From: Halorubrum sp. BOL3-1
Lineage (GTDB): Archaea > Halobacteriota > Halobacteria > Halobacteriales > Haloferacaceae
Length of the DNA: 64,000 nt
Assembly (NCBI RefSeq): GCF_004114375.1
Contig: NZ_CP034692.1
Coordinates: 558,001 to 622,000, forward strand
Direction of reading: 5' to 3'
The notes beneath the pieces are model-generated. The model worked only from the letters and a program-made list of their open reading frames with translations, did not search any database and was not told the origin of the DNA. The position numbers and the translations under genes were made by a program. Positions 10,834 through 52,125 of the stretch are shown one piece after another. Numbering within the stretch: the stretch's first letter is position 1; every line of letters starts with the position of its first letter.

Positions 10834-11670
10834 TCAGCCGTCGTCGGACGGGTCTTCCCGCTTCTCCCACTCCCGCCGCGGATCCTCGCCGGTGAACCAC
10901 GCCGCGATCCCGTCCGGGTCGTCCTCGTGGTACGCCTGCCGTCGGCTCCACTCGACGGTCGCCTTCGCGAGTGTGATCGGGATCAGGTACGGGAGCAGGA
11001 CCGCCTTGCCCCCGACCGCGGCCGCGACCGGGTCGAGCGCCCCGGGACCGACGACCGCCTGAACCGCGATCAGCGCGACGGTGACCGCGGGGACCGTGAG
11101 CATCCCGATGACAACGTAGAAGGAGACGACCCGCTGTGCCGCCTCGACGACCATGTAGGGTGACAGGTTCTCGTAGGCGCGCTCGGCGAAGAACTCGCGC
11201 CGCACTTCCGCGACCTGTGCGCCGCAGACTCCGACCGTCGCCAGCCCCACCGTCAGCGTGAGGTACGAGAGCGCATCGGCACCGACGTACCCCAGCGGGA
11301 ACGCGATAAAGAGGAAGATTCCCAGCGACCGGACGACGACCCGGGCGTTCCGGCGGTAGACCGGCGGGAGCCACGAGCCGAGGCGGATCGGTTCCGGATC
11401 GGTTCCCCACACCGCCTCGTCGCGCTCCGCGTCCTCGGAGTAGCCGACGATATAGAACGACCGGTCCTCCAGGCGGATCGGCCGCTCCGCGAACAGCGCG
11501 GCGACGCTGTACGCGGCCACCATGACGACCACCTCGATCCAATAGACGGCGAGCAGTTCGCCGACGCGCCAGCCGAACGCGACGACCCCCGCGAGTGGGA
11601 GGCAGTTGGTCGCGACCACGAGCGCGAGAGTCGACCGGCTTCCCGCAGGCGGGCGATCGGCGGTGACCAT
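10834..11670 (-). CDS. DUF6498-type integral membrane protein
   Basis: A 278-residue polytopic membrane protein. The N-terminal segment NCLPLAGVVAFGWRVGELLA followed by VYWIEVVVM matches the pattern of the DUF6498 family as I remember it. Several more hydrophobic helices follow, with a charged cytoplasmic C-terminal tail. An in-frame ATG exists 35 codons upstream, but it would add an Arg-rich leader, so the ATG at 11670 was preferred. Its function is unknown. It is divergent from the DUF357 gene, and the space between holds AT-rich promoter-like sequence (AATAAAATC). Confidence 0.82.
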   Translation of the reverse strand: MVTADRPPAGSRSTLALVVATNCLPLAGVVAFGWRVGELLAVYWIEVVVMVAAYSVAALFAERPIRLEDRSFYIVGYSEDAERDEAVWGTDPEPIRLGSWLPPVYRRNARVVVRSLGIFLFIAFPLGYVGADALSYLTLTVGLATVGVCGAQVAEVRREFFAERAYENLSPYMVVEAAQRVVSFYVVIGMLTVPAVTVALIAVQAVVGPGALDPVAAAVGGKAVLLPYLIPITLAKATVEWSRRQAYHEDDPDGIAAWFTGEDPRREWEKREDPSDDG

Positions 11671-42990: not shown

Positions 42991-43001
42991 AGAACTTCCC
43001 A
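42991..43001 (+). promoter_or_regulatory. TATA box of merA
   Basis: ATTATAAAATA ends 20 bases before the merA ATG, so transcription should start at or next to the ATG (leaderless). Confidence 0.6.
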
Positions 43002-43020
43002 TTATAAAATACAAACACGA

Positions 43021-44571
43021 ATGACCAGCGCGACAGACTACGATCTCGTGATTCTCGGCGGCGGTGCGGCAGCGTTCGCGGCCATCACCGAAGCCAGCCG
43101 GCGGGACCTCTCGACGGCGATGGTGAACACCGGTCTACCGATCGGCGGCACCTGCGTCAACGTCGGCTGTGTCCCGAGCAAGCACCTGCTCGCCGTCGCT
43201 GAAAACGGGGCCGCAGCGTCGGACAACCCCTTCGACGCCGTCACGCACCCCGAGGAACCGACCGTCGACTGGGCTGAGGCACTTGACGGCACTGACGGCC
43301 TCGTTGAGCGGTTCCGACGGGAGAACTACGTCGACGTCGCCGAGCACTTCGAGACTGACATCTACGAGGGGTACGGCGAGTTGGTCGACAGCGAGGAACG
43401 AAGTCCCTCGGGCAACCGGAACGCGGAGCGTTCCAGTAACGACACTACAATCGAAATCGTCGACGGCCCCGACGAAGGCACGCGCATCACCGGGGAGAAG
43501 GCGCTCGTCGCGACGGGTAGTTCCCCCTGGGCACCGCCTATCGACGGGCTCAAACGCGTTGACGAGCGAAGCTCGTCAGCCCATCAGACGCAGTCTGATG
43601 ACATCGACTACTACACGAGCGAGACGATTCTAGAGGAGCGCGACCTCCCCGAGGGCATCGTCATGCTCGGCGGCGGATACATCGCGCTCGAATGGGGCCA
43701 GATCCTTCACCGCGTCGGCGTCGACGTGACGATCCTCCAGCGCTCCGAGCGCGTCCTCTCGGGGATGGAGGGTCGACTCGGTCGGGAGGTTCGACAGGTG
43801 TTCCGTGAGGAGGGTATCGACGTGGTGACCGGCAACAGCTTCCAGCAGGTTCGATCGTCGGCGACCGACGGCGGTGTCGAGGCAACCCAGCAGGGCGTCA
43901 CGGTCGAGACGACCGTCGATGGCGACTCGCGGGCGTTCACCGCGGACGCGCTGTTCGTCGCGACCGGCGTGCAACCGAACAGCGAGAACATAGGTCTCGA
44001 CGCGGTCAACGTCGAGACCCAGGACGACGACACGATTCGCGTCGACGAGCACTTCCAGACGACCAACCCCGACGTGTACGCCGCCGGCGACGTGATCGGC
44101 GAGCCCGAGCTGGAAACCGTCGCCGCCAAGGAGGGAAACCACGCGGTCAAGAACGCCTTCGGTAACGAGCAGAAAGCCATCGACTACGACGCCGTCCCGG
44201 CGGTCGTGTTCACCACTCCCGAGGTCGCTGCTGTCGGCACGACCGAACTGGAATCTGTGGACGAACACGGCACCTGTTCCTGTCGGACCGTCCAGATGGA
44301 AGATGTCCCGCGGGCAAAAGCAGTTAAGAATACGGACGGACTCGTCCGGGTCGTCAAGCACCACGAGACCGACGAGATCGTCGGCGTCCACATGATCGGG
44401 CCACGTGCGGCGGACACGATTATGGAAGCGACGTTAGCCGTGAAGCTCGGCCTGACCGTGGATGACATCATCGACACCGTCCACCCGTTCCCGACGTTCA
44501 GCGAGGCGTTCAAACATGCCTGCCAAGCGTTCCGTCGGGATACCGAGACGATGAGCTGCTGCGTCGAGTAA
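43021..44571 (+). CDS. merA: Mercury(II) reductase (MerA)
   Basis: A 516-residue flavoprotein that reduces Hg2+ to Hg0 with NADPH in the cytoplasm. It has the FAD motif LVILGGGAAAFAA, the redox-active pair GGTCVNVGCVPSK (Cys45, Cys50), the NADPH motif VMLGGGYIALEWGQ, YAAGDVIGEPELETVAAKEG, and the C-terminal SCCVE (Cys513-Cys514), the mercury-delivery pair that separates MerA from lipoamide dehydrogenases. There is no N-terminal HMA domain. Two in-frame insertions at about residues 124-138 and 181-194 consist of paired DNA hairpins and are absent from the usual family plan. No merB, merP or merT was seen next to it. Confidence 0.94.
   Translation: MTSATDYDLVILGGGAAAFAAITEASRRDLSTAMVNTGLPIGGTCVNVGCVPSKHLLAVAENGAAASDNPFDAVTHPEEPTVDWAEALDGTDGLVERFRRENYVDVAEHFETDIYEGYGELVDSEERSPSGNRNAERSSNDTTIEIVDGPDEGTRITGEKALVATGSSPWAPPIDGLKRVDERSSSAHQTQSDDIDYYTSETILEERDLPEGIVMLGGGYIALEWGQILHRVGVDVTILQRSERVLSGMEGRLGREVRQVFREEGIDVVTGNSFQQVRSSATDGGVEATQQGVTVETTVDGDSRAFTADALFVATGVQPNSENIGLDAVNVETQDDDTIRVDEHFQTTNPDVYAAGDVIGEPELETVAAKEGNHAVKNAFGNEQKAIDYDAVPAVVFTTPEVAAVGTTELESVDEHGTCSCRTVQMEDVPRAKAVKNTDGLVRVVKHHETDEIVGVHMIGPRAADTIMEATLAVKLGLTVDDIIDTVHPFPTFSEAFKHACQAFRRDTETMSCCVE
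43392..43434. repeat. Tandem hairpin insertion 1 in merA
   Basis: Two adjacent hairpins: CGAGGAAC-GAA-GTCCCTCG (8-base arms, one mismatch) at 43392-43410 and GGAACGC-GGA-GCGTTCC (perfect 7) at 43418-43434. The pair encodes a Ser/Glu/Arg/Asn-rich insertion in a loop. Confidence 0.75.
43560..43600. repeat. Tandem hairpin insertion 2 in merA
   Basis: TGACGAGC-GAA-GCTCGTCA (43560-43578) and CATCAGAC-GCA-GTCTGATG (43582-43600), both perfect 8-base stems with three-base loops. The first contains GCGAAGC, known as an unusually stable DNA mini-hairpin. It lies in frame and adds about 14 residues before DYYTSE. Confidence 0.85.
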
Positions 44572-44819
44572 CCCCCGCCAGCACTATCCGAGTGATATCC
44601 ATACGGTCGCCGAAACGGCCGGGCACAACGGGACCGAGGGACGGGCAGTCATGCTGGATATAGAGAACGAGTTCAACACCAAGCGACGTTCAATTCAGAT
44701 CGGGCAGGTCGAAGACGCCATTAGCTACGGTTGTAGGGTTGTCAACGGGGTGTCATAGAAGCGTCCTCATACCCGGATCAAGACCGCTCAATACAGATGA
44801 CGGAGCGGTCGATCTGCTG
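44572..44819. other. Intergenic stretch after merA
   Basis: No convincing gene. A frame open from just after the merA stop contains an ATG at 44651 and could encode 35 residues (MLDIENEFNTKRRSIQIGQV and 15 more). It is of ordinary composition and may be a fragment of a lost gene. The hairpin-rich repeat begins right after. Confidence 0.4.
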
Positions 44820-45165
44820 GATCGGTGCGGTGGCGCGCGCCTCCGAGCGCCCGACAGGGCGCGAGGAGCGCGTGCGAGGGAGTCGCGAGCGGTGCGAGGT
44901 GTAAGCGAAGCGAGCACCTCGACGCGAGCGGCGAAGCCGCGAGCAGCGAGCGACGAGGCTGGGGAGGCGTGAGGTGCGGTTGCTGGCGTTCCCGCGAGCA
45001 GCGTGGCGCTCCGCGCCACGAGCAGCCGGCGTGGACGCCGGCGACGAAGCGAGCGGGAGCACGGAAGTCCCAGCCCGCGCAGCGAAGCGAGCAGGGTCGT
45101 CTTGCGGAGGGCCGGGACTCGAAGGGGCAGTCGAGCGAGTCCTCGCGGCTGGGGCCTCGGCCGTG
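44820..45165. repeat. Hairpin-rich intergenic repeat, copy A
   Basis: The core 44953-45130 matches, inverted, the core of copy B at 51835-52014 at nearly every base. It contains CGTGGCGC-TCC-GCGCCACG (45002-45020) and GCCGGCGT-GG-ACGCCGGC (45025-45042). The left part holds CGAGGTG...CACCTCG (44895/44915) and GCGGC-GAA-GCCGC (44928-44940), which differ in sequence from copy B but keep the hairpin format. About 190 bases after it, up to the aldo/keto reductase gene, show only an AT-rich tract (TTTTTATCAACAATATTAG). Confidence 0.85.
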
Positions 45166-45358
45166 TTCACCACACCAGTAGCGACTCCATTTTTATCAAC
45201 AATATTAGATGCGAAACATCAGTTTTATATACAGGTTCGTTCTACCGGGCGATTCGGCGAGATACGGCTGAAGACAATACCGTGTGAACTGTCCGACACC
45301 ACCCTCGGAGTGGGACTCACACGCGGAGCGGGACTGCCCCGTGAGAGATTTTTGCGAC

Positions 45359-46222
45359 TCACTGCGGGTCGATCGCGTCCAGATCCGCCACGCCCTCGTC
45401 GGTCAGATCCAGCGTCGACGCCGCAACGTTCGATTCGAGGTGGTCGACGCTCGACGTGCCCGGGATCGGCAGAGTCACGTCGGAGTGGTCGAGCAGCCAC
45501 GCGAGCGCGACCTGCCGGGGCGTCGCGTCGCGTCGGGCGGCGACCTCGTTGATCGCGTCCGCGGAGTCGTCGTCGTCGACCGCGTACATCGGTCCCCACG
45601 GGACGAAGCCGATACCGCGGTCTTCACACGCGCGCAGCACGTTTTCGTCGTCGCGGTGCCCGACGTTGTACCGGTTCTGAACGGTGGCGACGTCGACGAT
45701 GTCGAGCGCGGTCTCCAGCTGCTCGACGGTGACGTTCGAGAGCCCGACGTGGGCGATCTGGCCGGCGTCTTTCATCTCCGCGAACGCGTGAACTGACTCC
45801 TCGAAGTCGGTGTCCGGGTCCGGGCGGTGGAACTGGTACAGGTCGATCGTGTCGGTCCCGAGCCGGTCGAGGCTACACAGGACTTGGTTCTTCAGGAAGT
45901 CCGGGTCGCCGTGGGGGAGCCAGTCGCCCCCGCGGTTGCGAAGCAGGCCGGCCTTCGACGCGACGACCACGCCGTCGGGGTCGCCGAGCGCCTCGCCGAT
46001 GAGGCGCTCGGATACGCCGGGACCGTAGGAGTCTGCGGTATCGATGAAGTCGACGCCGACCTCCACGGCCCGTTGGAGTACCGCCTTCGCCTCGTCCTCG
46101 TCGTCGAGTCGGCCGACGATGTCCCCGCCCGTGATCCGCATCGCGCCGAAGCCGAGGCGGTCGACGGTTAGGTCGCCGCCGATATCGAACGTCTCGCTCC
46201 TGTCGGTGGTGTCTGAAGCCAT
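45359..46222 (-). CDS. Aldo/keto reductase
   Basis: A 287-residue NADPH-dependent oxidoreductase. The AKR tetrad is visible: Asp and Tyr in FIDTADSYGPGVSERLIG, Lys in VVASKAGLL, and His in LYQFHRPDPD. IAHVGLSNVTVEQLE and the C-terminal PIPGTSSVDHLESN are standard cofactor-binding motifs. The size is usual for bacterial/archaeal YdhF/Tas-like members. The substrate is unknown. It stands alone, divergent from the Lrp gene. Confidence 0.94.
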   Translation of the reverse strand: MASDTTDRSETFDIGGDLTVDRLGFGAMRITGGDIVGRLDDEDEAKAVLQRAVEVGVDFIDTADSYGPGVSERLIGEALGDPDGVVVASKAGLLRNRGGDWLPHGDPDFLKNQVLCSLDRLGTDTIDLYQFHRPDPDTDFEESVHAFAEMKDAGQIAHVGLSNVTVEQLETALDIVDVATVQNRYNVGHRDDENVLRACEDRGIGFVPWGPMYAVDDDDSADAINEVAARRDATPRQVALAWLLDHSDVTLPIPGTSSVDHLESNVAASTLDLTDEGVADLDAIDPQ

Positions 46223-51779: not shown

Positions 51780-51824
51780 GCAGTTGCGCTTATAACTGAT
51801 CGGAGACGCGAGCAACACGAACAC

Positions 51825-52125
51825 CGCCTCGCGGCTGCCCCTTCGAGTCCCGCCCCTCCGGAAGACGGTCCTGCTCGCTTCGCTGCGCGGGCTGTGACTT
51901 CCGTGCTCCCGCTCGCTTCGTCGCCGGCGTCCACGCCGGCTGCTCGTGGCGCGGAGCGCCACGCTGCTTGCGGGAACGCACAGCAACCGCAGCCTCACGC
52001 CTCCCCGGCCTCGTCAGTCGCCTCCGCGCTGCTCCGGCGACTGACTCCAGCGAGAATCGAAGATTCTCCGGCAGCCGGCGGCTCCGCCGCCGGCGACCTC
52101 GCGCGTGCGGTTCGCGCGCATAGAA
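51825..52125. repeat. Hairpin-rich intergenic repeat, copy B (inverted)
   Basis: The core 51835-52014 is the reverse complement of copy A at 44953-45130 with few changes. The outer part holds TCAGTCGCC...GGCGACTGA (52014/52036), GAGAATC-GAA-GATTCTC (52052-52068), and GCCGGCGGC-TCC-GCCGCCGGC (52074-52094). These stems have no sequence match in copy A, which has other hairpins there. The whole 390-base space between the CDGSH and top6A genes is filled by it. Confidence 0.85.

Follow-up and report, generated by a model that had tools for sequence, protein, structure and literature searches.

How two perfect hairpins came to stand side by side within the reading frame of merA, the mercury(II) reductase gene of Halorubrum sp. 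BOL3-1, is the question raised by this locus. The sequence analysed, hereafter the window, is a stretch of 64,000 nucleotides (contig NZ_CP034692.1, positions 558,001 to 622,000). We consider it probable that the double hairpin, designated site B, is one copy of a class-wide haloarchaeal family of short, non-autonomous, mobile double-hairpin DNA elements. The features on which this reading draws are the following.

43021..44571, + strand: merA, mercury(II) reductase, 516 amino acids, intact (TIGR02053, 486 bits, over the cut-off, 9e-146)
43387..43437, + strand: site A element, 51-nt insert (17 residues), peptide DSEERSPSGNRNAERSS (covariance model match 43390-43440, 35.7 bits)
43393..43409, + strand: site A hairpin 1, GAGGAAC-GAA-GTCCCTC, one mismatch
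43418..43434, + strand: site A hairpin 2, GGAACGC-GGA-GCGTTCC
43558..43602, + strand: site B element, 45-nt double hairpin with in-frame peptide VDERSSSAHQTQSDD (covariance model 38.1 bits, E 3.7e-8 in the window)
43560..43578, + strand: site B hairpin 1, TGACGAGC-GAA-GCTCGTCA, perfect 8-bp arms, GAA loop
43582..43600, + strand: site B hairpin 2, CATCAGAC-GCA-GTCTGATG, perfect 8-bp arms, GCA loop
45000..45045, + strand: intergenic unit copy in a GC-rich hairpin array (covariance model 41.2 bits)
51920..51965, - strand: intergenic unit copy, same sequence as the copy at 45000 (covariance model 41.2 bits)
52049..52097, + strand: intergenic unit copy, GAGAATC-GAA-GATTCTC, GGCA, GCCGG...CCGGC (covariance model 42.5 bits)

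The two hairpins lie exactly where the preliminary description had placed them (43560-43600), and the open reading frame around them is intact. That description put the addition at about 14 residues; the residues are indeed extra with respect to orthologues, but their true number is 15 (45 nt). Orthologous MerA proteins mostly comprise 484-485 amino acids, whereas the window protein reaches 516 because it hosts two in-frame elements, at sites A and B. Had all haloarchaeal merA genes carried the site B residues without palindromic DNA, the idea of an insertion would have been refuted; about 50 haloarchaeal MerA proteins lack them, and a universal MerA segment is rejected on these same orthologues. 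Among the haloarchaeal MerA compared, the site B insert was found only in the window, in Halorubrum trapanicum and in Halomarina sp. BCD28. It is identical at 45 of 45 positions between the window and H. trapanicum, while the whole genes are 82% identical (1234/1497) and the 150 bases on either side 83-87%; with Halomarina BCD28 it agrees at 44 of 45 positions against a background identity of 78%. Near-identical 45 bases are common to three otherwise diverged merA backgrounds.

The 64-nt strand at site B folds as two hairpins, with z = -3.7 as DNA and -4.5 as RNA, and all loops of the window merA hairpins (GAA, GCA and GGA) are of the C(GNA)G type. Hairpins with a 3-nt loop and arms of at least 8 bp number 12 in the window against 3.0 expected, an approximately fourfold excess; hairpins of other loop lengths show a modest excess at most. 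Pairs of neighbouring hairpins whose loops are GNA or AGA occur four times in 1.08 Mb of genome, compared with none in a Markov shuffle and none with control loops. These local statistics cover about 1.08 Mb of genome stretches, together with model and pattern searches, and not the whole genome.

Site A, which the preliminary description overlooked, lies about 120 bases upstream of site B in the same gene. Its insert (15-17 residues) is present in the window and in eight other MerA, namely those of Halobellus captivus, Natrinema zhouii, Halovivax, Halarchaeum, Halorubrum sodomense, Halomarina halobia, Salinigranum rubrum and one MAG, and absent from the remainder. A third insert, of 18 residues at site C, is found in seven MerA but not in the window. 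Site C (e.g. L033, L043 and L006) holds a 54-nt double hairpin, GGAGC-GAA-GCTCC ... GCGGGC-AGA-GCCCGC, and matches a window position between codons of 44160-44170, where the window is empty. These comparisons rest on 54 related loci from named haloarchaeal genomes, most of whose MerA were aligned with that of the window. In a merA tree built with the inserts left out, a single clade of carriers is rejected at each site (p-AU 8e-5 for A, 2e-96 for B and 4e-27 for C). Both window inserts appear as gaps in alignments to solved MerA structures (5x1y, 4ywo); an AlphaFold MerA model with a mean pLDDT of 48 was too poor for loop placement and was set aside. The merA copy of Halobellus rufus CBA1103 (L054:2501-3951) contains several stops after a frame change, indicating either a broken copy or a sequencing error.

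With the site A sequence as a lead, an in-frame copy in acetyl-CoA synthetase (ACS) and modules of the intergenic arrays were found in the source genome. The consensus unit, derived from 91 pattern-matched loci, reads GAC-[AGC - hairpin 1, variable 7-bp arms - GGCA - hairpin 2 ACCGGAC-GNA-GTCCGGT]-GAC, with 42 nt between the GAC triplets in its canonical form; the hairpin 1 loops are non-GNA in many copies. A 26-nt hairpin 2 pattern, with two mismatches allowed, matches 66 of 391 genomes of haloarchaea, spread over 24 of 86 genera, and the reversed 26-nt pattern matches none of the 391. A covariance model, R1, built from in-gene copies, finds about 50 copies in the genome of the window (E < 0.01). 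Within the genus 49 of the 52 species contain R1 copies, up to 62 each, and 31 of 43 sampled haloarchaea have matches, with E-values down to 1e-15 per genome; no R1 match was obtained in about 204 other Halobacteriota genomes. The exact pattern CCGGACGNAGTCCGGYGACG has no match in viral contigs, so that viral carriage, tried on this search, received no support, although variants are not excluded. The survey is skewed to the GGCAACCGG subtype of hairpin 2, and site B itself and the insert of L256 (AGCCGTCAGACTGCGTCTGACGAGCC...) show that further putative subtypes exist. L256, an acetyl-CoA synthetase orthologue of G039, carries this second, different 51-nt double-hairpin insert elsewhere in the enzyme, with the peptide SRQTASDEPSDSDGVGD.

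Among the R1 matches are sites A and B of merA as well as three intergenic units in the window. A model of in-gene copies thereby recovers site B and the intergenic units together, which bears out the earlier suggestion that the merA hairpins share their format with the intergenic repeats. The window contains long GC-rich intergenic arrays of short hairpins at 44820-45180 and 51800-52120, with recurring outer segments GGACTCGAAGGGGCAGTC ... GCTGGGGCTTCGG; similar arrays occur at L108:12200-12500, L121:2500-2800, L123:18300-18640 and L103:15600-15900.

Under a looser rule, 71 coding copies fall in 34 host families, so that the unit is present in at least 34 gene families. The hosts include DnaK (Hsp70), leucyl-tRNA synthetase, aconitase, CobN, penicillin amidase, AMP-binding enzymes and acetyl-CoA synthetase, as well as heavy-metal P-type ATPase, formate-dehydrogenase-like, thioredoxin-reductase-like and short-chain dehydrogenase proteins and histidine kinases, and plasmid records name additional host genes. 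Alignment of DnaK with a solved structure (2v7y) shows the insert as a clean gap. Coding status was called solely from the codon-position GC of the flanks, and the coding copies are not independent, 17 being in kinases and nine in ACS. Of the pattern-found coding copies, 45 of 46 are read in frame +0 and one in +2; of those found with the model, 18 of 19 are in +0 and one weak match is in +2; neither set includes a minus-strand copy. Five of the six frames are stop-free in nearly all units, so stops do not impose the single coding frame. The +0 reading gives a Ser/Gly/Asn/Asp-rich loop of 15 residues. All model-found coding copies are 45 nt long, whereas noncoding copies in the source genome range from 34 to 51 nt and are a multiple of three in only 9 of 43 cases (p = 4e-9). 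In several histidine kinases the unit is repeated in tandem at an exact period of 45 nt, e.g. SVEHGSTSSRTESGD repeats (L311:1087-1266, L312:1093-1227, L313:1048-1137 and L329:1027-1167). The sequenced runs adjoin the conserved RNSVEHG motif of the kinase genes, and since the SVEHG codons form hairpin 1, this hairpin may in part be host sequence in these genes.

Acetyl-CoA synthetase provides filled and empty sites within one genus, 11 and 19 respectively. With small variations the filled genes read CGG-GAC-[42 nt, AGC...GGT]-GAC-GAC, and the empty ones CGG-GAC-GAC. The added length in host genes is 45 nt (51 at merA site A), the sites are precise, and the resolved cases lie at a GAC GAC pair of Asp codons. 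Both the ACS site and merA site A show an extra GAC, and GAC precedes 33 of 54 pattern-found coding copies. As far as sequence comparison allows, the pattern fits insertion at an Asp codon with duplication of GAC. Other placements of the ends are possible, and the duplication is not proven because GAC is very common in haloarchaea. The preliminary idea that a hairpin unit, mobile or self-copying, may insert in genes thus gains support from the number of host families, the one frame and strand and the empty sites; active movement has not been shown, however, and self-copying remains an inference.

The alternative that survives best, although we think it unlikely, is that the inserts are not transposing now: each would have originated rarely at its site and then passed by horizontal transfer and short-tract homologous recombination among merA (or ACS) alleles. 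The near-identical insert at one site in three diverged merA genes would be expected from such exchange, merA is frequently plasmid-borne, and the ACS copies occupy a single site common to many species. Recombination does not explain, however, why 34 unrelated gene families, and intergenic arrays too, contain the unit, and at site B identity falls from 100% to 83-87% within 150 bases on each side. For site B in particular, spread among merA genes by short-tract recombination could nevertheless have occurred, and this counts against our reading of a mobile family, as does the fact that no movement is observed and no mobilising enzyme is identified.

Mobilisation in trans of a REP- or PATE-like element by IS200/IS605-type Y1 (HUH) transposases seems improbable to us. 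Such enzymes work on single-stranded hairpins, IS605-related palindromic elements (PATEs) are known in Haloquadratum (PMC3119063), and 41 of the 52 genomes of the genus contain Y1 genes. Yet the copy number of the unit is unrelated to the number of Y1 (PF01797) genes (rho 0.02, p 0.88), and genomes with zero Y1 genes hold up to 62 copies. Moreover, PATEs are described in the same source as lacking target duplication and as having near-terminal palindromes. Y1/IS605 mobilisation was rejected because the copy number does not follow that of PF01797.

The pattern of base changes in the arms bears on the remaining alternatives. In an alignment of real sequences only, nine pairs show two-sided changes, and 98.5% of the structure cells are paired compared with 29-43% in slid controls. 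The alignment behind R1 has one composite row, which R1 retains; the covariation result is the same in the alignment without it. Two-sided changes occur in six of the seven pairs of hairpin 1, which lies outside the search pattern, so that the search cannot have produced this covariation. Between host families the hairpin 1 arms differ by 43 two-sided changes, 32 of which keep a Watson-Crick pair, and 21 one-sided changes, whereas among ACS orthologues there are no two-sided and eight one-sided changes (Fisher p = 4e-4). Some of the two-sided counts stem from copies in a shifted register. Pairing appears to be maintained in the source from which new copies arise and to erode after insertion into a gene; its retention between hosts and loss among orthologues imply that pairing matters for spreading and not for the host gene.

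Retention of the hairpins for an action in the host mRNA, such as stability, pausing or processing, would account for the strong RNA fold (z -4.5) and for their constant position on the coding strand. It is hard to reconcile with the eight one-sided losses of pairing among ACS orthologues, with the absence of the element from most orthologues and with the lack of an Rfam match, and we regard it as very unlikely. No Rfam 15 match was obtained at E up to 0.1 in 43000-45400, and a known Rfam RNA was rejected on this basis.

Nor do we give much credence to the view that the insert is kept for its peptide, as a halophilic linker of which the palindrome is a by-product. The single frame, the hydrophilic Ser/Gly/Asn/Asp-rich loop and the insertion at loops are what this view would predict, but the residues vary while the bases stay paired (44 well-paired units encode 43 different peptides), the unit also occurs between genes, orthologues work without the insert, and between hosts paired changes are commoner than one-sided ones (43 vs 21). 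Covariation and peptide diversity led us to reject peptide selection as the main cause. Chance palindromes, although short inverted repeats are frequent in GC-rich coding sequence, are excluded by their absence from shuffles and control loops and by a covarying family with model E-values to 1e-15 per genome.

For a mobile double-hairpin family the following mechanism can be inferred. Copying or insertion would depend on the folded hairpins, most likely in the form of single-stranded DNA, given the extraordinary stability and nuclease resistance reported for GNA-loop minihairpins in DNA; the frequent non-GNA loops of hairpin 1 weaken this tie. An unidentified host or trans-acting activity, for which no enzyme has been identified, would copy the folded single strand and duplicate about 3 bp. 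Selection would then retain only those copies whose orientation and frame yield a tolerable surface loop, and such selection on the encoded loop is the simplest explanation for the single orientation and frame. A broader interpretation is advanced only tentatively, as one that may well prove wrong: that these are ancient, still-active, hairpin-only haloarchaeal DNA elements without a transposase of their own, whose folded single strands are copied by some host activity that has so far not been linked to DNA mobility, and that they are adapted to life inside essential genes through the neutral 15-residue loop they encode, are the first archaeal counterpart of the Rickettsia palindromic elements (RPEs) and serve as a standing source of new protein loops.

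By analogy, the closest known kind would be the RPEs, in-frame palindromes of about 150 bp (PMC10969869), together with other protein-coding palindromes of Rickettsiales; they lie within a large number of unrelated and presumably functional genes, and outside genes as well (PMC10969869, PMC3733652). In-frame insertion in many unrelated genes, empty orthologues and extragenic copies are all met by the haloarchaeal unit. It differs in its archaeal host, its length of 45 nt, its two separate 3-nt-loop hairpins and its nearly exclusive use of one frame and strand. Common descent with RPE families fails on size, and no sequence relation has been shown. In CGTC-tagged REPs, for which the reports come from bacterial phyla, the loops measure 4-5 nt, the tails are unpaired and CCA-like, and there is no dedicated transposase (PMC3733652). 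Like CGTC- and GTAG-tagged REPs, the haloarchaeal units are small palindromic repeats, sometimes intragenic and often in dimers or clusters; unlike the CGTC type, they have 3-nt loops, no CCA-like tail, two tandem hairpins in the same orientation and an archaeal host. The Y1 (HUH) association of GTAG REPs and other IS200-IS605-derived repeats is not met.

In form the unit resembles the double-hairpin elements (DHEs) of Allomyces mitochondria, which are organelle DNA and consist of two adjacent hairpins; DHEs are optional between relatives, and a case for their mobility has been made (Paquin et al. 2000, cited in PMC7218506). With the PATEs and SMRs of Haloquadratum it shares the nature of a transposase-free haloarchaeal mobile repeat with palindromes. 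The study of these repeats (PMC3119063) derives the PATEs of Haloquadratum walsbyi from IS605 elements, gives about 110 bp for SMR-A and describes haloarchaeal MITEs and SMRs with terminal inverted repeats; in the parts consulted, in-frame coding copies are not mentioned. Unlike MITEs, the haloarchaeal unit has internal hairpins and not long terminal inverted repeats. No archaeal family of such elements was found described in the open-licence literature; subscription papers were mostly outside this search, and priority is not established.

The recurrence of the merA element of about 45 bases in at least 34 kinds of gene, nearly always in the same orientation and frame, points to a very small mobile DNA that persists within proteins by being translated into a harmless loop of 15 residues. 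Rickettsiales are the group in which in-frame palindromic elements are best documented, and the archaeal family has a sharper architecture of 45 nt, two hairpins and one frame. With DnaK, leucyl-tRNA synthetase, aconitase and further conserved enzymes among its hosts, such a family would show that, outside Rickettsiales too, selfish DNA can evolve so that proteins tolerate it. The filled and empty pairs occur in a group with genetically tractable members, making movement and peptide effects directly testable, and for annotators there is a warning that insertions confined to one lineage of a haloarchaeal protein may represent DNA parasites and not adaptations.

The loops themselves correspond to a known physical motif. 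Minihairpins of d(GCGAAGC) and of the C(GNA)G type are extraordinarily stable and nuclease-resistant in DNA (PMC4686876), and the loops in the window fit C(GNA)G; this is an in vitro motif, however, and not a genomic family. Hairpins with 3-nt loops and near-identical flanks also recur on plasmids and the chromosome, probably inside insertion-sequence genes (L057:3461-3481, L058:11757-11773, L065:6941-6961 and 10957-10977, L132:5062-5078 and L133:18562-18582).
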